A stretch of DNA of 64,000 nt. Origin: Alphaproteobacteria bacterium. GTDB lineage: Bacteria; Pseudomonadota; Alphaproteobacteria; Micropepsales; Micropepsaceae. The DNA lies in NCBI GenBank assembly GCA_947467345.1, contig CANIHD010000010.1, positions 1 through 64,000 on the forward strand, read 5' to 3'. The position numbers and the translations under genes are program-made. Shown here piece by piece: positions 3,314 through 53,202 of the stretch; position 1 is the stretch's first letter, and every line of letters starts with the position of its first letter. Below the pieces are notes generated by a model, which saw only the letters and a list, made by a program, of their open reading frames with translations, was not told where the DNA came from and ran no database searches.

Positions 3314-4525
3314 TTATTTCATCGCCACTTTCAGATTGGAATCTATCTTGTCGAGGAAGCCTTCGGTGGTCAGCCATTTCTGCTCGGGGCCAACCAACAG
3401 CGCCAGATCTTTGGTCATGTCACCGGATTCCACCGTGTCGAGCGTGACCTTCTCCAGCGTGGCGGCGAATTTCGCTAGACCCGCATTGTTGTCCAGCTTG
3501 GCGCGATGCGAGAGGCCGCGCGTCCAAGCATAGATCGACGCCACCGAATTGGTGGACGTCTGTTCGCCCTTCTGATGCTGGCGGAAATGGCGCGTAACCG
3601 TGCCATGCGCCGCTTCCGATTCCACTGTCTTGCCGTCCGGCGTCATCAACACGCTGGTCATCAGACCCAGCGAGCCGAAGCCTTGCGCCACAGTGTCAGA
3701 TTGCACGTCGCCGTCATAATTCTTACAGGCCCAGACATAGCCGCCGGACCATTTCAGCGCCGCAGCCACCATGTCGTCGATCAAGCGATGTTCGTAGGTG
3801 ATGCCCGCCGCTTTGTATTTCGTGGCGAATTCTTCGTCGAAAATTTTCTGGAACAGATCTTTGAAGCGGCCGTCATAGCGCTTCACGATGGTGTTCTTGG
3901 TCGAGAGATAGAGCGGATAGTTGCGCTGCAGCGCGTAGTTCATGGAAGCGCGCGCGAAATCGATGATCGATTGATCGAGATTGTACATCGCCATCGCGAC
4001 GCCGCCGCCCGGGAAATCGAACACTTCGCGTTCGATCTTCTGGCCGTCTTTGCCTACCCAAGTGAGTGTCAATTTGCCTTCGCCCGGCACCACGAAATCG
4101 GTGGCGCGATATTGATCGCCGAACGCATGACGGCCGATCACGATCGGTTTGGTCCAGCCGGGGATCAGACGCGGCACGTTTTTGCAGATGATGGGTTCGC
4201 GGAAAATCGTGCCACCCAGAATATTGCGGATGGTGCCGTTCGGGCTCTTCCACATTTCCTTGAGATTGAATTCCTTCACGCGCGCTTCGTCGGGGGTGAT
4301 GGTCGCGCATTTCACGCCGACGCCGTGGCGCAGGATCGCGTTCGCCGCATCGATCGTCACCTGATCGTCGGTGGCGTCGCGGTGCTCCATGCCGAGGTCG
4401 TAATATTCCAGATTGATGTCGAGATAGGGCAGGATCAGTTTCTGTCTGATCAGGGCCCAAATGACGCGGGTCATCTCGTCGCCGTCGAGTTCGACAACAG
4501 GATTGGCGACCTTGATTTTGGTCAT
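3314..4525 (-). CDS. icd: NADP-dependent isocitrate dehydrogenase (eukaryote-like dimeric type)
   Basis: Oxidatively decarboxylates isocitrate to 2-oxoglutarate in the TCA cycle, producing NADPH. The product is 403 residues and begins [20 protein letters not shown], the start of the 400-residue homodimeric family shared with eukaryotic IDH1/2 rather than the longer-studied E. coli Icd. Further hallmarks are [41 protein letters not shown] and [12 protein letters not shown]. The frame is open 30 codons further up, but the ATG at 4525 has GAGGA eight bases before it and matches family starts. It is divergent from trmJ and feeds the 2-oxoglutarate dehydrogenase genes at the far end of the window. 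Confidence 0.96.
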
Positions 4526-4706
4526 GGAAATTGTCCTCGGAGGGTCGGAAGGTGGCGGCCAAAAAGTGGTGGGCGAAGGCGCGGCTCTCTTACCGGCTGC
4601 ATTCGGCCCCGTCAAAGGCGCTGCGGCCGGTATTATTGCCCATGGATTATTGCCCGTGGATCATACCTCTGGGCGCTGCCGCGGCAGGCCTGCTAAACGT
4701 CGCGGC

Positions 4707-5501
4707 ATGAGCGAAACACGCGGCCCCAAATCCCCCGCCCCTGCCATTGTCCTGTCCGAACCCCAGCTGGGTGAAAATATCGGCGCGGCTGCCAGAGCCA
4801 TGGCCAATTTCGGCCTCTCGGATTTGCGCCTGGTGCGACCGCGCGACGGCTGGCCGAATGAGCGGGCCGAGGCCATGGCGGCCGGCGCCGTCTTTGTGCT
4901 CGAAGGGGTGCGCGTGTTCGACAGCGTCGAGGCCGCCATCGCCCCCCTCCATTTTGTCGTGGCGGCGACTGCGCGCGACCGCGCCATGGCCAAGCCGGTT
5001 CTGACCCCCGCCGAGGCGGCTTTGCGCCTGCGAGCCGTGGAAGCTGCCGGGCAGGGCACGGCTATTCTCTTTGGGGGCGAGCGCTCCGGCCTCAGCAATG
5101 ACGAGGTAGCCCTGGCCGATGCGGTGGTCACTATCCCCACCGATCCCGCCTTTTCCTCGCTCAATCTCGGCCAGGCGGTGCTCCTGACCGGGTATGAATG
5201 GTTCAAGGCGAAAGACGCTACGCCGCCGGAGCGGATCGACCACGGTGCCGCCCTTCCGGCGCCTCGGGATGAGCTTTTCCGCCTTTTTGAGCATTTGGAG
5301 GAGGAGCTGGAGAAGAGCGGCTTTCTGTATCCGCCTGGCAACCGCGCCAGTATGATCCGAAACCTCCGTTCCATACTCCACCGCGCTCAGCTGACCGACC
5401 AAGAGGTGCGCACCCTTCGGGGGGTGATCGTCGCCCTTAGCCGCGGCAAGCGCCGGAAGAATGATGCAGCAGCCGCCACCGGCGAATTCGAGCGCGAATA
5501 G
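4707..5501 (+). CDS. trmJ: tRNA (cytidine/uridine-2'-O)-methyltransferase TrmJ
   Basis: SPOUT-class enzyme that methylates the 2'-hydroxyl of nucleotide 32 in the tRNA anticodon loop using S-adenosylmethionine. The 264-residue protein has the N-terminal motif [20 protein letters not shown] (motif 1). The knot region reads [14 protein letters not shown] and then [16 protein letters not shown], the conserved cofactor-binding loops of the TrmH/TrmJ family. A helical C-terminal extension of about 80 residues ([20 protein letters not shown]) is typical of TrmJ. The upstream part of the open frame overlaps the icd start, so I choose the ATG at 4707 ([10 protein letters not shown]). It precedes rpsD on the same strand, but rpsD has its own promoter. 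Confidence 0.9.
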
Positions 5502-5528
5502 GCCTTTATTTTCGTTGGTCAGGATCGC

Positions 5529-5569
5529 TTGACCGGGAAAGGCCCATGGCTATAGTGCGCGCCTTCCGC
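5529..5569 (+). promoter_or_regulatory. Sigma-70 type promoter of rpsD
   Basis: TTGACC (5529-5534) and TATAGT (5551-5556) are separated by 16 bases. The predicted start is near 5563, about 60 bases before the rpsD ATG. The 41 bases from the -35 box through GCCTTCCGC are 34/41 identical to the promoter of rplU at 38219-38259, including parts outside the -35 and -10 boxes. Confidence 0.75.
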
Positions 5570-5623
5570 GGGGGACCCCGGCGGGCTCCCATTCCACCTT
5601 GCCAAGGTCTTTATGGTTTCCGC

Positions 5624-6241
5624 ATGACGAAACGCTCGACTGTCAAATACAAGCTCGACCGCAAGACCGGCGAGAATATCTGGGGCCGCGCCAAGAGCCC
5701 GGTCAACAAGCGCGCTTACGGGCCCGGTCAGCACGGCCAGCGCAAATCGCGCAAGCTGTCGGACTACGGAACGCAGCTGCAAGCCAAGCAGAAGCTCAAG
5801 GGCTATTACGCCAACATCACCGAGCGCCAGTTCCGCAAATATTACGCGGAAGCCGTGCGCAAGCCGGGCGATACGGGCGAGACCATGATCGGTCTTCTGG
5901 AGCGCCGCCTCGACGCCGTCCTTTTCCGCGCCAAATTCGTACCGACCCCGTACGCGGCGCGCCAGCTCGTCAGCCATGGCCACATCGCGGTAAACGGTAA
6001 GCGCACCAATGTTGCGTCCTATCTGGTCAATGCCGGCGACACGATCGAACTGCTCGGCAAGGCCAAGGACATGGCGCTGGTTCTGGAAGCGGTGAAGAGC
6101 ACGGAACGCGACGTTCCCGATTATATCGATGCCAACCACACGAAGATGAGCGCGAAATATCTGCGCATCCCCAAGCTCGGCGATGTGCCCTATGCGGTGC
6201 AGATGCAGCCAAGCCTCGTGGTGGAATTCTACTCGCGCTGA
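5624..6241 (+). CDS. rpsD: 30S ribosomal protein S4
   Basis: Primary rRNA-binding protein of the small subunit; organises the 5' domain of 16S rRNA and contributes to decoding accuracy. The product has 205 residues, as expected for bacterial S4. The N-terminal segment [20 protein letters not shown] is the alphaproteobacterial form without zinc cysteines. The S4 RNA-binding domain follows ([20 protein letters not shown], then [16 protein letters not shown]). The protein ends in VEFYSR, as S4 proteins do. The frame is open from 5546, but that segment contains the promoter, so the ATG at 5624 is the start. It is a single-gene unit with its own promoter and terminator. Confidence 0.98.
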
Positions 6242-6263
6242 TTTTTGCCGCGAACGATTTGCG

Positions 6264-6299
6264 AAAGGCCGCTGGGGTTTCCCAGCGGCCTTTTTTGTT
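6264..6299 (+). terminator. Rho-independent terminator of rpsD
   Basis: A 13-bp stem AAAGGCCGCTGGG / CCCAGCGGCCTTT with a GTTT loop, followed by a run of T (TTTTTTGTTT). It begins 23 bases after the rpsD stop. Confidence 0.9.
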
Positions 6300-6378
6300 T
6301 CGGCGCTGCTCGGACCCGTGGCGTGACTTGGGCCATGTTCCGTGGAAGTTTTGCGTCTGAAATTTTCGGAACCTGCGC

Positions 6379-7008
6379 ATGACGTACACGCTCTATGGCG
6401 AGCCCGGCTCGGGTTCGTTTTGCGCTGAAGCTGCGTTTGCCGAGGCGGGAGTCGCGGTGGAACTTTTCAATCTCGATCTGAAGAAGAACGAGCAGCTGGC
6501 GCCGTCTTATCTCGCGGTCAATCCCACCGGAAAAGTTCCATCGTTGAAACTTCCCACCGGCGAGATCGTCACCGAGTCGGCGGCCATTCTTCTGACCATC
6601 GCCGATCGCCATCCGGAAGCCGCGCTTCTTCCGGAACAAGGAAGCGCGGCGCGCGCTGCCGCCTTGCGCTGGATCGTGTTCGTGAGTTCCGAAATATATC
6701 CGATGGTCGAGATCGTCGATTACCCGCAGCGCTTCGCGAGCGGCGACGAAGCGATTCAGAATTTGAAAGATACGGCACGGACGCGTTTGCGCGCGCGGTT
6801 CCTTGTATTGGAACACGCCATTGCCGGCTCGTTCGTTTTAGAATCGGGTTTCGGCCTCCCCGACATTTACGCCGCCAATCTTGGGCAATTTTACGTCGGT
6901 CATGCGTGGCGCCGCGAGCATTGTCCCAAGCTTGAAATGCTGACGAACGCAGTTGTCGAGCGTCCGAAAATCGCGCCGATATGGCGCCGACATTTCGCTT
7001 CAAATTAG
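6379..7008 (+). CDS. Glutathione S-transferase family protein
   Basis: Cytosolic GST of 209 residues, expected to conjugate or reduce substrates with glutathione; the substrate cannot be told. The N-terminal thioredoxin-like domain (about 1-80) reads MTYTLYGEPGSGSFCAEAAF, with VNPTGKVPSLKLPTGE holding the cis-proline and ESAAILLTIADRHP holding the GSH gamma-glutamyl-binding Glu-Ser. The all-alpha C-terminal half follows with the short motif GFGLPDIYAANL, where the family usually has sTvADiyl. It stands alone between the rpsD terminator and the DUF1800 gene. Which GST class it belongs to is unresolved. Confidence 0.88.
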   Translation: MTYTLYGEPGSGSFCAEAAFAEAGVAVELFNLDLKKNEQLAPSYLAVNPTGKVPSLKLPTGEIVTESAAILLTIADRHPEAALLPEQGSAARAAALRWIVFVSSEIYPMVEIVDYPQRFASGDEAIQNLKDTARTRLRARFLVLEHAIAGSFVLESGFGLPDIYAANLGQFYVGHAWRREHCPKLEMLTNAVVERPKIAPIWRRHFASN

Positions 7009-7170
7009 ATTCGCATTTCGGAACTTGTCACAAGAATCACAAAGTGATGATTGAGCAACGCGCGGCAATCATGCATTAACGGCGCAATTGCACGCCGCTC
7101 GAATCTCGAAGTTCGTTATATAAGATAACGACAGGGTGATTCGAAAAGGGCCGCAACTCTAAAACCGATT

Positions 7171-8892
7171 CTGCGCACACTTGTTGTTTGTCTGCTCGTC
7201 GCGGTTACGACCGCGTGCGGTGGCGGTGGCGGCGATAGCAATGGTGGAGGTAGCGGCGGCGGCGGCCGTGGCGTTGGACCGGCACCACCTCCTCCAGCAC
7301 CAACGCTTACCGACGCGGAAGCGGGGCGCCTTCTGGCGCAAGCCACATTCGGCGCCACGGAATCCGGCATCGCCGAGGTTCGTAGTTCCGGCGTCAATAG
7401 CTGGCTCAATACCGAAATAAACACGCCGCAAGGTGGCAATTTCGCCGCTCAGCTCGATGCACGGCTGGTGCAGCTACGCGTGGCAGATCCGAATGCCGGC
7501 CTGGGTCCCAATCAGTTCTATGAAGCGTTCTGGCAGAACGCGGTCACCGGCAGCGACCAGTTGCGCCAGCGTATGCGCTTTGCACTCTCGCAGATTTTCG
7601 TCATTTCGCTGGTGGACCCAAATATCGATATTCGCGGTGCCGCCTCCTATTACGACATGCTGGGCGCCAACGCGCTGGGCAATTACCGCACATTGCTGGA
7701 GCAGGTGACGCTGCATCCAATGATGGGCGTCTATCTCACACATCTCGCCAATCAGAAAGAAGACACCGCCGGCACGCGCTCGCCCGACGAGAACTATGCC
7801 CGCGAAGTGATGCAGCTAATGTCCATCGGGCTGTTCATGCTGAACCCCGATGGAACAAAGCAACTCGATACAAGCGGCCAGCCGATTCCGACCTATACGC
7901 AGGACGATATTAGCGGCCTCGCCAGAGTGTTCACCGGCCTCAGCTGGTATGCGCCGACGCCGACCAACAACACGTTCTTCGGCGGCAACCGCAATGCGGA
8001 CGCCACCATTCGGCCGATGATTTTTTACAATAATTATCACTCGACCAGCCAGAAGCGCTTTCTCGGCACCACCATTCCGGCCTCCGCGACGGTCGATATC
8101 GCCGGCGACTTACGCATCGCGCTGGATACGATTTTCAATCACCCGAATGTCGGGCCGTTTATGGCGCAGCGGCTGATCCAGCAATTCGTCACCAGCAATC
8201 CGAGCCTAGCCTATGTTCGGTGTGTGGCGACCGTGTTCAACAATAATGGCTCGGGCGTGCGCGGCGATCTGGCGGCGGTGATACGCGCCGTTCTCACCGA
8301 TTCCGAAGCCAGAAATATCGGGGTGGTGTCGAGTGCGAGCTTCGGAAAATTGCGCGAGCCGGTCATTCGCCTGGCCAATTGGATGCGCGCGTTCGGCGCC
8401 ACGTCGCAATCGGGCAATTGGCTAATGGGTTCGACATCGGCAAACACCTCGCTATCGCAAGCGCCACTGACATCGCCATCGGTGTTCAATTTCTGGCGGC
8501 CGGGCTATGTGCCGCCCAGCACCCAACTCGGCGCGCAAAATCTTCAGGCGCCGGAATTCCAGGTTGTCGATGAGGTCACGGTCGCCGACTACCTCAACAC
8601 GATGCAGAACGCGGTCAATGCCGGCGTCGGATCAGGCAACGACATCCGCTCGGCCTATACGGCGGAAATCGCGATCGCCAATGATCCGGTGGCTTTGGTC
8701 GATCGGGTCAACAAGCTGCTAGTTTACGGGCAGTTGTCCGCCATTTCGCAGCAACGCATCAATGAAGCGGTGACGGGCGTGGCTATTCCGGCCACCGGCA
8801 CGCAGGCGCAGATCGATGCCGCGCGTCTGAACCGCGCGAAACTGGCTGTGTTTCTGGCGATGGCTTCTCCCGAATATCTAGCGCTGCGTTGA
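7171..8892 (+). CDS. DUF1800 family secreted lipoprotein (non-canonical start)
   Basis: Protein of unknown function (PF08811), exported and usually encoded beside a DUF1501 protein, as here. The frame is open from 7129. It contains a convincing lipoprotein signal, RTLVVCLLVAVTTAC, with the lipobox Cys at about residue 16, then a Gly/Ser/Pro-rich linker and the DUF1800 body (TDAEAGRLLAQATFGATES, RSPDENYAREVMQLMSIG, ISGLARVFTGLSWY). No ATG, GTG or TTG exists in frame before the signal peptide. CTG at 7171 or ATT at 7168 fits best. A GTG at 7136 in the next frame would give a charged N-terminus if one base were gained or lost before 7160. The GTG at 7468 would remove the signal and part of the domain. 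The stop is 10 bases before the next gene. Confidence 0.85.
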   Translation: MRTLVVCLLVAVTTACGGGGGDSNGGGSGGGGRGVGPAPPPPAPTLTDAEAGRLLAQATFGATESGIAEVRSSGVNSWLNTEINTPQGGNFAAQLDARLVQLRVADPNAGLGPNQFYEAFWQNAVTGSDQLRQRMRFALSQIFVISLVDPNIDIRGAASYYDMLGANALGNYRTLLEQVTLHPMMGVYLTHLANQKEDTAGTRSPDENYAREVMQLMSIGLFMLNPDGTKQLDTSGQPIPTYTQDDISGLARVFTGLSWYAPTPTNNTFFGGNRNADATIRPMIFYNNYHSTSQKRFLGTTIPASATVDIAGDLRIALDTIFNHPNVGPFMAQRLIQQFVTSNPSLAYVRCVATVFNNNGSGVRGDLAAVIRAVLTDSEARNIGVVSSASFGKLREPVIRLANWMRAFGATSQSGNWLMGSTSANTSLSQAPLTSPSVFNFWRPGYVPPSTQLGAQNLQAPEFQVVDEVTVADYLNTMQNAVNAGVGSGNDIRSAYTAEIAIANDPVALVDRVNKLLVYGQLSAISQQRINEAVTGVAIPATGTQAQIDAARLNRAKLAVFLAMASPEYLALR

Positions 8893-37351: not shown

Positions 37352-37380
37352 TTGAAGCCTGTGACTTTTCTGCCTATATT
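37352..37380 (+). promoter_or_regulatory. Strong sigma-70 promoter upstream of candidate small RNA
   Basis: TTGAAG (37352-37357) and TATATT (37375-37380) are separated by exactly 17 bases. They lie in the lowest-GC segment of the window (37270-37380), after the beta-barrel gene and with no protein gene downstream on this strand until rplU. The predicted start is 37387. Confidence 0.72.
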
Positions 37381-37386
37381 CATCGG

Positions 37387-37529
37387 CGGTGGGATTGTGT
37401 TTGTCTGCATTGCCCCCGCTCGCCGACCAACTGCATCCCCTTCAGTACCGGCTTCCCCTCCCGGTACGAGCGCTTCAAAAGCGCATTAAGCGGCCGGTCG
37501 ATGCCCCATCGATCGGCCGCTTTCTATTT
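37387..37529 (+). ncRNA. Candidate small RNA with C-rich loops and strong terminator
   Basis: Predicted transcript of about 143 nt from the promoter at 37352. A first hairpin (TGCATTG at 37406-37412 with CAACTGCA to 37435, one bulge) has a loop rich in C (CCCCCGCTCGCC). A second (GTACCGG at 37445-37451 with CCGGTAC at 37461-37467) has loop CTTCCCCTC. A small GCGC stem follows, then a 16-bp terminator hairpin (37488-37503 with 37507-37522, loop CCC) and TTTCTATTTG. No open reading frame in it looks coding. The layout of two C/U-rich loops plus terminator recalls the alphaproteobacterial cuckoo-type (CCUCC-loop) RNAs; the family assignment is only a suggestion. Confidence 0.65.
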
Positions 37530-44744: not shown

Positions 44745-45185
44745 ATGGAAATCAATGGACCACGCCGAATCGACTCCGCGCGAACCGCGCGCAGCCGAAG
44801 CGTGTCCGGATCGGATGGCAAAAGCTTTCTCAGCGACGAACCTGTCGAGGCCCGCGCGGCGACAGGGCTGACCGGCACGGGCCAAATCGCTGCTGTCGAC
44901 ACGATCATCGCGCTGCAAGGCATCGGCGATTGGGACGAGCAGAATGCGCGCGGCGCACGCCACGGCGAACAGCTTTTGTTTTTGCTCGACGAAGTGCGCG
45001 ATGGTCTTCTCACCGGCGGCATTCCGCGCATGACACTCACCCGTCTGGCAGCCGCAACCGCCAAGCGCCGTGATTCGTTCACCGACACAAAATTGCAGTC
45101 CATCTTGGACGAAATTGACCTGCGCGCCCGGGTGGAATTGGCAAAGCTTGAACAGGCAGAGCGGCAAAGCCCTCAGTCGTTCTAA
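44745..45185 (+). CDS. fliX: Flagellar assembly regulator FliX
   Basis: FliX links flagellar assembly to the FlbD/sigma-54 class III-IV programme in Caulobacter and is confined to Alphaproteobacteria. The 146-residue product opens MEINGPRRIDSARTARSRSV and has the C-terminal helices GLLTGGIPRMTLTRLAAA and LQSILDEIDLRARVELAKLE. AAGG precedes the ATG. It often sits beside flgI; here flgI is absent and rlmH lies upstream, a sign that the flagellar region is rearranged. Confidence 0.9.
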   Translation: MEINGPRRIDSARTARSRSVSGSDGKSFLSDEPVEARAATGLTGTGQIAAVDTIIALQGIGDWDEQNARGARHGEQLLFLLDEVRDGLLTGGIPRMTLTRLAAATAKRRDSFTDTKLQSILDEIDLRARVELAKLEQAERQSPQSF

Positions 45186-45992: not shown

Positions 45993-46737
45993 TCAGAACG
46001 GAAAGACGAGGTCGTAAAGCTGCTGGCCGTAGCGCGGCTGCTGCACGTCGGTAATCTGGCCGCGCCCGCCATAGGAAATCCGCGCTTCTACAATTTGCGT
46101 TTGATTGATCGTGTTGGCATTGGAAATGTCTTCCGGGCGCACGATGCCGGAGATGGTGAGTTCGCGCACTTCGAAATTCACCCGCACTTCCTGGCGGCCT
46201 TGGATCACGAGGTTGCCGTTCGGCAAAACATCGACCACCACCGCGGCGACGGTGAGCTTGATGCTTTCCGAGCGATTCACCGTGCCGGTGCCGGTGGAAG
46301 AGCTATCGGAGCCGCCGCCCACGAGATCGGCGGGATCCACCGCATCGGGAAGAATTTTGTTCAGCTTGCTTTCGAGGCCGAGAAAGCTTGTGAGGTCGGC
46401 ACTTTCCGCTGCGCTGCGTGTGCGCGTCGTGGTGTTGGCAAGTGACGCTTCGTCGCCGATCTCGATGGCGACGGTCAGAATGTCACCGGCTTTGGCCGCG
46501 CGCGGGTCGCGAAAAAAAACTGCGTGAGCCCGGGCGCCGCAGCGTATTCGCTTGGCGCGGCTGCTGCGGTTCTGCCGCCATTGGTGCCATGGTAGCGCCA
46601 TAGGTCACCGGCGTGATGCCTAACGGGCTCAGACGCGGCGCTTGGCCGATATCCGCAAGCCGTTCGGTAGAACAGGCGGTCACACCCATGCCGATCGCAA
46701 GCAGCGATGACAGTGAAACGAAGGACCTGGATTTCAT
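45993..46737 (-). pseudogene. flgH: Flagellar L-ring lipoprotein FlgH, frameshifted at an A8/T8 tract
   Basis: FlgH forms the outer-membrane L ring. The 5' part encodes a lipoprotein signal (SLLAIGMGVTACSTERLADI) and the start of the protein, ending in PGSRSFF. The rest continues in the next frame with FFRDPRAAKAGDILTV and EIGDEASLANTTTRTRSAAE, to LYDLVFPF. The frames meet at eight T on the coding strand (A at 46512-46519). Removing one T gives the normal SRSFFRDPRAAKAGDI, so the intact gene would have 247 residues. Explanations are a real mutation, a reversible phase-variable tract, transcriptional slippage, or a sequencing error. It is downstream of flgA. Confidence 0.88.
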
Positions 46738-46755: not shown

Positions 46756-47259
46756 CTAGTGGCTTGCGGTGATGGCGACACGAGAAGGCTTCGGCGCCGC
46801 GCCTACGCGCACCCGACCCGGCGCGATCACCATGGCCTGGACCTGACCATACGAAGTCGGGTTGAGCACCGAGATCACGTCGCCTTCGGCGCCGTCCGCC
46901 ATGGCACGGCCGGTTGAACTGAGCGTCACACCGCCGGACTCGAAGACCATGGTGACGGTGGCGCCTTTGGCGACCAGCGCATGCGGCTTCACATCGATGG
47001 TGCGAATGAGTTCGCCGGTGCGCAAAGCGCGGCGTGCTTCCAATCCCACCAGATCGGCGATGCTGCGCGCAATCGATTCATTGGCGCGCGTGGAAGGCAC
47101 GGCCTTGTAAGTAAGATCGCTCTCGCTCAGCACCGCGCCGCGCGCGATCTCGTGCGCGGGAACGGCGACGTCGACTTCGGGCACAGGCGCCGGCACTTGC
47201 GCAAACGCGCTGAACGCGAAGAGACAAAACAGGAAAGTAAGAGAATGGCGCATCATCAT
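46756..47259 (-). CDS. flgA: Flagellar P-ring assembly chaperone FlgA
   Basis: Periplasmic chaperone needed to assemble the FlgI P ring. The product is about 167 residues with a signal sequence (LTFLFCLFAFSAFAQ). The SAF-like domain reads VPAHEIARGAVLSESDLTYK and VGLEARRALRTGELIRTIDV, and the C-terminal part has VISVLNPTSYGQVQAMVIAP. The open frame starts with a TTG at 47268 overlapping the flgG stop; ATG codons at 47259, 47256 and 47253 are better starts. The gene is intact although flgI, its client, is not in the window. Confidence 0.9.
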   Translation of the reverse strand: MMMRHSLTFLFCLFAFSAFAQVPAPVPEVDVAVPAHEIARGAVLSESDLTYKAVPSTRANESIARSIADLVGLEARRALRTGELIRTIDVKPHALVAKGATVTMVFESGGVTLSSTGRAMADGAEGDVISVLNPTSYGQVQAMVIAPGRVRVGAAPKPSRVAITASH

Positions 47260-47264
47260 GGTCG

Positions 47265-48050
47265 TCAACTCATTCTGGAGGTTGTGTCGAGCATCTGGTC
47301 GGCGGCCGAGATGACTTTGGAATTCATCTCGTACGCGCGCTGCGCGGTGATCAGCGTCGTGATTTCCTGCACCGCGTTGACGTTCGATGTTTCCAAGAAG
47401 CCCTGTTGCAGCGAGCCGTAGCCCGGTGAACCGGGAAGTCCTGCGAGCGCAGGGCCGGAGCCGGCGGTTTCGGTGAAGAGATTGTCGCCGTTGGCTTGCA
47501 GGCCGCCATCATTGGCAAAGCGCACAAGTTCAAGCTGGCCAAGCGTTTGCGGTTCGGCTTCGCCGGCCAATACCGCTTGAATCTGGCCTTGCGAATTGAT
47601 CGTCACCGCCAGCGCGCCTTGCGGGACGGCGATACCCGGTGCAACCATGAAGCCTTTGGGCGTTACGATCTGCCCGTCGGGCGAAAGTCCAAAGGCGCCG
47701 TCACGCGTATAGGCGTCGGTCCCGTCCGGCATGGTGACACGAAAATAACCCTGTCCCTGAATGGCGACGTCGTAAGGATTTCCCGTGCTGGCAAGATTCC
47801 CTTGCCCGGTGATGCGATAGATCGCGGCGGTGCGCACACCGACACCGATCTGAATGCCTGACGGCAGCACGGTGTTGGCATCGGACGATGCGGCGCCGGG
47901 CCGTTCGACGTTCTGATAGAGAAGGTCCTGAAACTCGGCCCTCTGCATCTTGTAGGCGGTCGTATTCATGTTCGCGAGATTGTTCACGATGACTTCCACG
48001 TTTGTCTGCTGGGCCAACATGCCGGTGGCGGCGATACTTAAAGCGCGCAT
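47265..48050 (-). CDS. flgG: Flagellar distal rod protein FlgG
   Basis: Distal rod subunit of the basal body, 261 residues. The N-terminal rod motif is ATGMLAQQTNVEVIVNNLAN, with the ANMNTTAYKMQRAEFQDLLY extension. The central D1 domain contains VAIQGQGYFRV and YTRDGAFGLSPDGQIVTPKG. The C-terminus ALQ-like end is QQGFLETSNVNAVQEITTLI and QRAYEMNSKVI. The gene is complete. It lies 11 bases downstream of the flgF fragment. Confidence 0.96.
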   Translation of the reverse strand: MRALSIAATGMLAQQTNVEVIVNNLANMNTTAYKMQRAEFQDLLYQNVERPGAASSDANTVLPSGIQIGVGVRTAAIYRITGQGNLASTGNPYDVAIQGQGYFRVTMPDGTDAYTRDGAFGLSPDGQIVTPKGFMVAPGIAVPQGALAVTINSQGQIQAVLAGEAEPQTLGQLELVRFANDGGLQANGDNLFTETAGSGPALAGLPGSPGYGSLQQGFLETSNVNAVQEITTLITAQRAYEMNSKVISAADQMLDTTSRMS

Positions 48051-48061
48051 GATATTTGCTC

Positions 48062-48240
48062 CTATCCTTGCGGCACGTTGGCGAGCTTTTCGAGCGCCCG
48101 CTTCAGAAGATCCTGGGTTTTGTCGGTGATGTCGGCGCCGGCCTGATAGGCGCGCATAACCTCGATCATGCGCGAGATTTCGATCACCGGTTCGACATTC
48201 GATTTCTCAAGCATGCCTTGGCGATCGCTGGCAGGCGGAG
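48062..48240 (-). pseudogene. flgF: Flagellar rod protein FlgF, 3' fragment only
   Basis: Only the C-terminal end of FlgF is left: RQGMLEKSNVEPVIEISRMI followed by RAYQAGADITDKTQDLLKRA, about 55 residues. A normal FlgF has about 240 residues and an N-terminal rod domain, which is absent. Upstream of about 48240 the reading frame continues into unrelated sequence (PQSVRASAQANRDRRQVHKR) that is antisense to another truncated gene. The 5' end with start and promoter has been lost by deletion. Confidence 0.85.
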
Positions 48241-48519
48241 GGAGATCTAAGCGCTCCGGAACAGGCACAAATCCTGCGCGCGGCTGTCGCTTATGCACTT
48301 GGCGGCGATCACGATTCGCTTGCGCGCTTGCGCGAACGCTTTGGGGCAAAAATGGCAAAGGGCACTGAAAGCAAAGCCTTCGCCGCGGTCACGGAATCAT
48401 CCGACATCGACGGTCTCGCTTTACGCGACATGGCCAAGCGCGTGGCGTCGATCGACACGCTGCAAGCCTTCATGGACGAATTGAAGTCCCGCGCGGCCGC
48501 CAAGGTCGCGACGAACTAG
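48238..48519 (+). pseudogene. 3' fragment of a plus-strand gene (helical protein, unrecognised)
   Basis: An open frame on the plus strand has a natural stop at 48519 but no plausible start. It codes for about 93 residues of helical, charged sequence (SAPEQAQILRAAVAYALGGD, LARLRERFGAKMAKGTESKA, ALRDMAKRVASIDTLQAFMD). It looks like the C-terminus of a larger helical-repeat protein. Its 5' break point, about 48225-48245, is the same as that of flgF on the other strand. I infer that flgF and this gene were divergent and that a deletion removed their common 5' region. Confidence 0.6.
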
Positions 48520-48530
48520 AACGCTTCGCC

Positions 48531-49022
48531 TCAGCGTGTCGTCAGGTCCGCGAAGGCCGCGATGACGCGGGCATAGATCTCGCGTTTGAACGGAACGATG
48601 AGCGCGGGAAGTTCGCTCGCATTCACCCATTTCCATTCGTTGAATTCCGGGTGCGCCGTCTTCAGATTGATGTCGCTGTCATTTCCTGCGAAGCGCAGCG
48701 CGAACCATTTCTGCGTCTGCCCGCGATAGCGCCCTTGCAGCGCGCTCCCAATTAAATGGGGCGGCAAATCATAGTTCAGCCATTCAGGATTCTCGCGCAG
48801 GATGACGCCTTTGCGCGTGCCGATTTCCTCGTCCATTTCGCGGATGAGCGCGTCGTTGGGACTTTCGCCGGGATCGATTCCGCCTTGCGGCATTTGCCAG
48901 GCCTCAAGCGTCTGGTCGATGCGCTTGCCCACGAACACGCGCCCCTCAGCGCTGAGCAGCATGATGCCGACACAAGGACGGTACGGCAGCGAGTCGGCGG
49001 GAACGGGTGTTTTGGTGATCAT
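48531..49022 (-). CDS. rppH: RNA pyrophosphohydrolase RppH
   Basis: Nudix hydrolase that removes pyrophosphate from 5' ends of mRNA or cleaves dinucleoside polyphosphates. The 163-residue protein has PYRPCVGIMLLSAEGRVFVG at the start and a complete Nudix box at 47-68 (GGIDPGES..., then REMDEEIG). AWQMPQGGID is the typical RppH motif. It ends 12 bases after the end of the truncated gene to its left. It lies downstream of the divergent polysaccharide deacetylase gene on the minus strand. Confidence 0.94.
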   Translation of the reverse strand: MITKTPVPADSLPYRPCVGIMLLSAEGRVFVGKRIDQTLEAWQMPQGGIDPGESPNDALIREMDEEIGTRKGVILRENPEWLNYDLPPHLIGSALQGRYRGQTQKWFALRFAGNDSDINLKTAHPEFNEWKWVNASELPALIVPFKREIYARVIAAFADLTTR

Positions 49023-50292: not shown

Positions 50293-51624
50293 CTAGCGCG
50301 CCGGCGTGGCTTCCGCTGCTTGCACAGGGAGCGGCGTGACGATGCCATTCAGCCGATCCAGCGCGTAAGACAGCTGGAAATCGTCGACCGTCTGGCCTGC
50401 AACAGGCCGGATCACCGGCATGCTGGTGTCGCGCTGCGCGCCTTCCGCATCGAGATGTCCGCTGAGGCTCGCTTCCGTCCGCAGCACGAATTGATTGCGT
50501 GCCGCGTCCTGTGCCGCCGTCAAATTCGACACCGCGATATCTGGCGCAATACCGGTCGCCTGAATGGAGCGTCCCGAAGGCGTGTAGTAGCGCGCCGTGG
50601 TGAGCCAGAGCGCGCCGCCAGTGCCGCCGCCAAACGGGATGACGTTTTGTACGGAGCCTTTGCCGAACGAGGTCACGCCGATGATGGTGGCGCGTTTGTG
50701 GTCCTGCAATGCGCCGGCCACGATTTCCGACGCCGAAGCTGAGCCTTCGTTGATCAGAACGACAACCGGCTTGCCTTCGGTGGTGTCGCCCGGTTTGGCA
50801 TTGTAGCGCTGCGTGTCTTGCGCGCGGCGGCCGCGAATGGAAACGACTTCGCCGCCGGGCAGGAATTCGTCGGATACGGCAATGGCCTGATCCAGAAGCC
50901 CGCCGGGATCGTTTCTAAGATCGACGATATAGCCTTTGATTCCGGTGCCGATCTGGCGCTTCAACGTGCGCAGCGCATTGGCAACGTCCTGCGCCGTGCG
51001 TTCGTTCATGAAGGTGGCGATGCGCAGATAACCGACGTCGCCCTTGCGTTCGAATTTCACGCTGGATGTTTTGATCACCATGCGCGTCATGGTCAGATCG
51101 AAGGGCGCATTTTCGCCCTTGCGCATCATCGTCAGCGTCACTTTGGAATCCGTAGGGCCGCGCATTTTTTCAACCGCTTCGTTGAAGGGCACACCCTCAA
51201 CGCTGGTCCCGTCGATCGCCACGATCAGATCGCCGCTTTGAATGCCGGCGCGCTGTGCCGGCGTGTCGTCGATCGGCGTGACGACTTTGACGAAGCCGCC
51301 TTCGGCGCTCACTTCAAGGCCGAGACCACCATATTCACCGCGTGTTTCTTCCTGCGATTCCTGAAATTCGTCGGGCCCGAGATAGCGCGAATGCGGATCG
51401 AGGGACGTGACCATTCCGTTGATCGCCGCGCTTACCAACTCGTCGTCCTCGACTTCGCGCACATAATTTGCGCGCACGCGTTCGAACGCGTCGCCGAGAA
51501 GATCGAGTTGCTGATAGGCCGTGACCAGGTTTGGTGCGCCCGCGCCTTGCGCGGTCGAAAACAGCGCCGCAGCGCCGACAAAACCAACCGACATATACAA
51601 TGCGGGAAGCAAATACCGCTTCAT
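50293..51624 (-). CDS. C-terminal processing peptidase (S41), copy 2 of tandem pair
   Basis: Periplasmic serine protease of the CtpA/Prc group, 443 residues. The signal/anchor is LLPALYMSVGFVGAAALFST. A PDZ domain (GGLGLEVSAEGGFVKVVTPI, ... IQSGDLIVAIDGTSVEG) precedes the protease core with GSASASEIVAGALQDH (catalytic Ser) and TSFGKGSVQNVI (catalytic Lys). It is homologous to the next gene over the whole length. The open frame extends upstream of the ATG at 51624, but MKRYLLPALYMS is a clean start with AGAGAG upstream. Hairpins near 51791-51825 lie between the two copies. Confidence 0.94.
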   Translation of the reverse strand: MKRYLLPALYMSVGFVGAAALFSTAQGAGAPNLVTAYQQLDLLGDAFERVRANYVREVEDDELVSAAINGMVTSLDPHSRYLGPDEFQESQEETRGEYGGLGLEVSAEGGFVKVVTPIDDTPAQRAGIQSGDLIVAIDGTSVEGVPFNEAVEKMRGPTDSKVTLTMMRKGENAPFDLTMTRMVIKTSSVKFERKGDVGYLRIATFMNERTAQDVANALRTLKRQIGTGIKGYIVDLRNDPGGLLDQAIAVSDEFLPGGEVVSIRGRRAQDTQRYNAKPGDTTEGKPVVVLINEGSASASEIVAGALQDHKRATIIGVTSFGKGSVQNVIPFGGGTGGALWLTTARYYTPSGRSIQATGIAPDIAVSNLTAAQDAARNQFVLRTEASLSGHLDAEGAQRDTSMPVIRPVAGQTVDDFQLSYALDRLNGIVTPLPVQAAEATPAR

Positions 51625-51873
51625 ACGGGAAATCTCTCTTGCGCGAACGATCTCGAAATTAGCCCTCAATCTAGGGCATTTCAGGGCCAAGGAGTGTCCC
51701 GAACCTGCAACAAGGTTAGAAACTTAGACAGGTCGGTTTTCAGGAACCCGTTTCCCCGCAGTAGTGGGGGAGTTAAGGGCAGCAAATGCAAGGGCCGGCC
51801 TGCTGTCGCAAACCAGCCCCTGTTTTCAAGACCTTAGGTACTCAAAACCCAATATCCGTTCTGCAATCCAGCC

Positions 51874-53202
51874 TCAGTTCTGCGACACCGGTGCGGTCGG
51901 CTGCGGCTGTGCCACCACGATTTTTCCATGCAGGCGGTCGATGGCGAATTGCAGCTGGAAGTCGTCATAGGTTTTTCCGGCTTCCGGACGGACTGTCGGC
52001 AGCTTGGTGTTGCGCTGCGCGCCTTCGGCTTCCAAATGGCCGGGCAGAACCGCTTCGCTGCGCACCGCGAATTGATCGCGGGTCGCCTGTTCCTGCTGGG
52101 TCAAATTCGACACCGCGACGTCCGGCGTAATACCGGTCGCCTGAATGGTGCGTCCCGACGGCGTGTAATAACGCGCCGTGGTCAGACGCAGCGCGCCGCC
52201 TTGCTGTCCGCCCAGCGGAATGATGGTCTGCACCGAGCCTTTGCCGAACGAGGTCTCGCCGACAATGGTCGCGCGCTTATGATCTTGCAGCGCGCCGGCC
52301 ACGATTTCCGAAGCCGAAGCGGAGCCTTCGTTGATCAGCACAATGATCGGCTTGCCGTCGGTGATGTCACCCGGCCGTGCATTGTAACGCTGCGTGTCTT
52401 GCGCCCTGCGGCCGCGGGTCGAAACGACTTCGCCGCCGGTCAGGAAATAATCCGACACCGCGATGGATTGATCCAGAAGCCCGCCGGGATTCTGGCGCAA
52501 ATCCAGCACATAGCCTTTCAGCCCGCCGCCGATTTGACGCTTCAGAGTACGCACGGCGTTGTTCACGCCTTCCGCGGTCCGCTCGCTGAATGAGCTGATG
52601 CGGATATAGCCGATATCGCCTTTGGCTTCGAACTTCACGCTCTGCACGCGGATAACGGCACGCGTCAGCGTCAATTCGAACGGCGTTTTTTCGCCTTTGC
52701 GCAGGACAGTGAGGGTGACCTTCGATCTCTCGGCGCCGCGCATTTTTTCCACCGCGTCATTCAGTGGCAGGCCTTGAATGGAAATTCCGTTGATAGCGGA
52801 AATGAAGTCGCCGCTCTGAATCCCTGCACGTTGCGCCGGCGTATCGTCGATCGGCGAAACTACTTTCACGAGTCCGTCTTCGGCGGTTACCTCAATGCCG
52901 AGGCCGCCAAATTCGCCGCGCGTTTGGGTCTGCATGTCCTCGAAATCTTTCGGGTCCATGTAGCTGGAATGCGGATCGAGCGATGTCACCATGCCGTTGA
53001 TGGCGGCGTTCACCAGCTCTGAGTCTTCGACTTCGCGCACATAATTGGCGCGTACGCGTTCAAACGCGTCGCCGAACAGATCGAGCTGCCGATAGGCAGA
53101 GATTGCGTTCGGCGCATTCGCACCTTGCGCTGTCGAAAGCGCGAGCGCGCCGGCAAATCCGATGGCGATGCCCACACCCGCAAACGCGAAGCGATTCAAC
53201 AT
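51874..53202 (-). CDS. ctpA: C-terminal processing peptidase (S41), copy 1 of tandem pair
   Basis: Periplasmic serine protease of the same family, 442 residues, with signal LNRFAFAGVGIAIGFAGALA. Shared blocks include LFGDAFERVRANYVREVEDS, TSLDPHSSYMDPKDFEDMQ, the PDZ loop and GSASASEIVAGALQDHKRAT plus TSFGKGSVQTIIPL. CtpA enzymes degrade or trim periplasmic proteins and peptidoglycan factors. One base separates its start from the envC stop, so the two are cotranscribed. The envC-ctpA order is conserved in Alphaproteobacteria; the second copy is a local duplication. Confidence 0.95.
   Translation of the reverse strand: MLNRFAFAGVGIAIGFAGALALSTAQGANAPNAISAYRQLDLFGDAFERVRANYVREVEDSELVNAAINGMVTSLDPHSSYMDPKDFEDMQTQTRGEFGGLGIEVTAEDGLVKVVSPIDDTPAQRAGIQSGDFISAINGISIQGLPLNDAVEKMRGAERSKVTLTVLRKGEKTPFELTLTRAVIRVQSVKFEAKGDIGYIRISSFSERTAEGVNNAVRTLKRQIGGGLKGYVLDLRQNPGGLLDQSIAVSDYFLTGGEVVSTRGRRAQDTQRYNARPGDITDGKPIIVLINEGSASASEIVAGALQDHKRATIVGETSFGKGSVQTIIPLGGQQGGALRLTTARYYTPSGRTIQATGITPDVAVSNLTQQEQATRDQFAVRSEAVLPGHLEAEGAQRNTKLPTVRPEAGKTYDDFQLQFAIDRLHGKIVVAQPQPTAPVSQN

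Follow-up and report, generated by a model that had tools for sequence, protein, structure and literature searches.

How did the ends of two genes, neither of which has a start, come to lie back to back beside a run of flagellar genes, and what has disappeared from between them? The window analysed here is a stretch of 64,000 bases (1-64000) from contig C10 (107 kb) of genome G000, a draft of 2.49 Mb in 25 contigs with completeness given as 96%, which we explored by targeted searches and in selected stretches. Gene order and missing lengths are measured against G002, a flagellated genome of the same genus. As a proxy for the ancestor G002 stands at 60-80% protein identity, and the exact ancestral break sequences are deduced. 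Each search that reported a gene as absent from G000 recovered that gene from G002 and from motile controls.

On the minus strand, flgF is reduced to its last 53 codons and stop (48062..48223), with neither start nor promoter. The translated stump matches Pfam Flg_bbr_C (E 3e-12) and is 68.5% identical to residues 235-288 of G002 FlgF, so that FlgF is retained from G002 residue 238 onward. The plus-strand stump comprises the final 100 codons and stop of a large, putatively periplasmic MotK/CC_2058-like gene (48217..48519), and no start codon occurs between the upstream in-frame stop and the body of this frame. Its product corresponds to the C-terminus of a 1122-aa G002 protein (47% over residues 1016-1111, E 1e-21) and is retained from G002 residue 1020 onward. 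As judged by sequence comparison, the homology of the stumps, collinear on both sides, is far beyond chance. A sequence-only reading of the window had described two start-less stumps back to back, and Pfam and homology to G002 confirm both.

The two stumps share the heptamer CTTGGCG (48217..48223, assigned to neither strand), which encodes flgF codons (R-Q plus one base) in one frame and codons of the large gene (L-G plus one base) in the other. The motif LGxRW, common to relatives of the large protein, and the motif QGM, common to FlgF relatives, both fall at these nucleotides. The microhomology amounts to 4-7 nt, and random blunt joins would overlap by at least 4 nt in 1.6% of cases and by at least 7 nt in 0.04%. 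Because 4-7 nt are common to both sides of the break, the junction points to illegitimate, short-homology joining. The break had earlier been put near 48235, with the stumps about 20 bases apart; the back-to-back arrangement stands, but the position was off by about 15 nt and the two ends overlap. An insertion sequence (IS) was looked for at the window junction and not found, and the window holds no match to the IS3-family end at a second junction, on contig C13. An IS or IS remnant, the mark of an IS-mediated deletion, is present only at that C13 junction.

The intact arrangement in G002 reads RppH, the 1122-aa protein gene (4467-7835, immediately after the motE-like gene), motE-like, DUF6468, fliM and fliL, then the divergent flgF, flgG, flgA and flgH. 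Across the family, 15 loci were examined: fliL, fliM and motE adjoin flgF in every one, and 11 of them also have the large gene. Judged by this synteny, the ancestral order is flgF divergent from fliL-fliM-DUF6468-motE-large periplasmic gene. The comparison with a flagellated relative that had been proposed as a check shows flgG and RppH to be collinear anchors in the window and G002, and 6814 bases of G002 (about 6.8 kb) between the retained points to be missing from the window. The right-hand anchor, a NUDIX hydrolase gene (RppH-like; 48531..49022, minus strand), has 66% identity to its counterpart at the same position in G002.

A single deletion of about 6.8 kb, by the G002 measure, would account for the truncation of both flgF and the large gene. 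It would have fused the two 3' ends and taken both 5' parts, their common promoter region and everything between. The lost operon would be the divergent fliL-fliM-DUF6468(PflI-like)-motE-MotK-like unit, with the large gene last. The sequence-only reading had proposed just such a single event, removing a divergent promoter and both 5' parts, and had guessed that fliL and fliM went with them; synteny with G002 and at other loci supports the single event, and fliL and fliM are indeed gone. We infer one event, and several nested deletions would look alike. FliL, MotE and the large gene have no other copy on the G000 stretches compared.

Beyond the flgF stump, flgG is intact (47265..48050, minus strand, 82% to G002), its native upstream promoter region having been deleted by comparison with G002, and flgA is an intact open reading frame (46756..47268, minus strand; Pfam ChapFlgA). 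The flgH gene (45993..46737, minus strand) is broken, as had been noticed: a frameshift at an A8/T8 run (46512-46519) leaves two frames that overlap, as is evident from a Pfam FlgH match on the downstream frame and from alignment to the 254-aa G002 FlgH. The shift could be a genuine mutation, or the product of slippage or of a sequencing error. The fliX gene is intact (44745..45185, plus strand; Pfam FliX). The absence of flgI beside it had been taken as a sign of decay; flgI is indeed absent from G000, but the local argument fails, as in G002 rlmH comes directly after fliX and flgI sits on a different contig, which rules out a local loss. To the right of RppH, two S41-type peptidase genes lie in tandem (50293-51690 and 51874-53202), and both match the one gene that G002 has there (C9:84655-85995).

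The second junction, on contig C13, is of the same kind. A truncated fliI, stopping near residue 397 of 462, runs into a 95-bp IS3-family left end (C13:37353-37447), which is followed by a truncated flgL resuming at about residue 105 and then by mnmA. The IS3-family identity was assigned from matches to annotated IS3-family elements on sphingomonad plasmids. About 22.6 kb of G002 is missing here, including flgK, fliK, flgD, flgE, fliF, fliG, fliH, fliN, a FlbD-type regulator, flhA and an FlhF-like gene. This deletion would thus have taken hook, MS-ring, C-ring, export and regulatory genes. The contig holds this IS end a second time, as a longer but still truncated copy in inverted orientation at C13:39598-39927, so that the flgL stump and mnmA lie between two opposed left ends. 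An in-frame orfA-flgL fusion (C13 37417-38070) starts in the end at 37353-37447.

Whole-genome searches of the 96%-complete G000 assembly returned no FlhA, FliF, FlgI or flagellin, and FliM is likewise absent, a whole-genome FliMN_C search giving only a 94-aa FliN-like ORF. The genome search that had been called for accordingly found neither fliM nor flgI, and flgB and flgC proved intact. Still intact in G000 are flgG, flgA, fliX, flgB, flgC, fliE, fliPQR, flhB and motB; contig C19 carries fliP, flgB, flgC, fliE, fliQ, fliR and flhB in the G002 order, and motB is on contig C6. The flagellar decay suspected from the window is borne out by the genome-wide absences and by the C13 junction. Because at least two block deletions removed essential parts, the G000 cell is predicted from its gene content to be unable to build a flagellum and to be non-motile. 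We put a probability of about 0.93 on the reading that a single deletion left the scar at 48217-48223, that this genome has undergone two or more block deletions, that no flagellum can be built and that the remaining genes are recent relics.

We also note a stand-alone short FliN-like (FliMN_C) ORF beside a lipB-like gene in G000 (C17:74382-74591), G001 (C5:7432), G005 (C291) and G002 (C21:22509). Its retention in three genomes with no detected FlhA or FliF suggests a non-flagellar role.

The age of the loss can be gauged from private changes at positions where the relatives are conserved. In the flagellar genes that remain, 31 such changes are found only in G000 and 19 only in G002, and the same count in two control genes gives 4 versus 13 (Fisher p 0.01). 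The G000 excess lies mainly in FlgA and FliR, with p rising to 0.12 when these two are left out, and FlgG, FlgH and FlhB show no excess. Strong relaxed selection on the retained G000 genes is rejected, and relaxation is at most weak in this test. Since the retained genes are at most weakly relaxed, the flagellum was probably lost recently relative to the split from G002; their slight decay fits a recent loss and would equally fit an assembly error. G000 represents an intermediate stage, with two loci stripped of whole blocks and most other flagellar genes intact, which suggests that large deletions come first and point decay afterwards.

Other members of the genus bear on whether the loss was older than this. 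Of seven genomes of the genus that were searched, six yielded no FlhA or FliF, as would be expected from one ancestral loss before the flagellum-less congeners split, with nested deletions later producing the window junction. In G005, flgL and fliI are intact, flgK survives as a 41-residue end and flhB solely as its C-terminal part; this flgK-fliI deletion could have been swallowed by a later, larger one in G000. In G001, however, fliP to fliR are deleted, whereas fliPQR is intact in G000. There flhB, lacking about 13 codons, directly follows a Rieske gene and precedes a CckA-like gene (C28:12047-13118). A small tree groups G001 with the flagellated G002 (UFBoot 93, falling to 70 when flagellar genes are left out), and the lack of strong relaxation in G000 also speaks against an ancestral loss, which we consider unlikely. 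Several independent losses in the genus are probable, with limited tree support, because G001 groups with flagellated G002 and because G001 and G005 have different block deletions at related loci. For the fuller proposal of at least three independent recent losses, in the G000, G001 and G005 lineages, each through the clean removal of blocks from one small set of loci but with differing break points, we see the odds as even. If it is true, the genus forms a natural series on the dismantling of a complex machine; it offers a comparison of one flagellated species with several that keep different relics. Literature searches on flagellar loss in this lineage returned nothing specific.

Assemblers require far longer shared words than 4-7 nt, so a misjoin at the repeat-free window junction, with its overlap of just that length, would be unlikely. 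We accordingly regard it as highly improbable that the assembly misjoined the two ends of an intact flagellar region and lost its middle in binning, even in a draft genome (25 contigs, 96% complete) whose retained genes are little decayed. The C13 junction could be prone to such a misjoin, as its IS3 end recurs elsewhere on that contig, but both junctions are contig-internal (C10 at 48.2 of 107 kb; C13 at 37.4 of 85 kb) and related mid-contig deletions occur in congeners. Moreover, this reading would also require fliM, fliF, flhA, flgI and flagellin to have dropped out of the assembly, and flgH is frameshifted independently. Least credible is a re-purposing of the stumps or retained genes, for instance as a partial FliP-FliQ-FliR-FlhB export complex serving some other purpose: the FliPQR/FlhB, FlgB, FlgC and FlgG frames are intact with near-normal conservation, but no working export apparatus is possible without FlhA and FliF and with a truncated FliI, and the subsets lost in G001 and G005 differ, leaving no common retained set.

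Block deletion in G000 has parallels among known systems. The lost operon, as seen in G002, resembles those of Cereibacter sphaeroides (fliL-pflI-motE-motA-motK) and Caulobacter (the CC_2058 operon), whose genes are needed for flagellar rotation (PMC10954123), in running from fliL to motE and then to a large periplasmic protein gene; unlike the Cereibacter operon it has fliM and no motA. The large gene holds the MotK/CC_2058-type position, after motE in the fliL operon, and is called MotK/CC_2058-like by position and size rather than by direct comparison; its N-terminus, where an AMIN-like domain would be expected for this type, is absent from the window, and no Pfam or NCBIfam model scores above cut-off for the G002 gene.

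IS-associated deletion of flagellar blocks is already published, and G000, in which contiguous genes are missing between conserved flanks and essential flagellar parts are absent, is a further case of that kind; knowledge of flagella themselves is unchanged by it. Xanthomonas fuscans subsp. fuscans 4834-R is non-motile and has lost 33 kb with 34 flagellar genes in an IS-associated event, and other xanthomonads show different flagellar deletion patterns (PMC3826837). As in G000, a contiguous flagellar block is missing from 4834-R (PMC3826837). In 4834-R a single block has given way to a complete ISXfu2, whereas G000 is affected at two loci at least, with an IS-free junction in the window and a 95-bp IS3 end on C13; motility was tested in that strain, whereas G000 is known from its genes alone. 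In Brucella, also an alphaproteobacterium, a review lists fliL, fliM, fliG, fliK and others as pseudogenes (PMC8781033). That review lists its pseudogenes one gene at a time, whereas G000 is marked mainly by large, clean losses of whole blocks and keeps most of its remaining genes intact.
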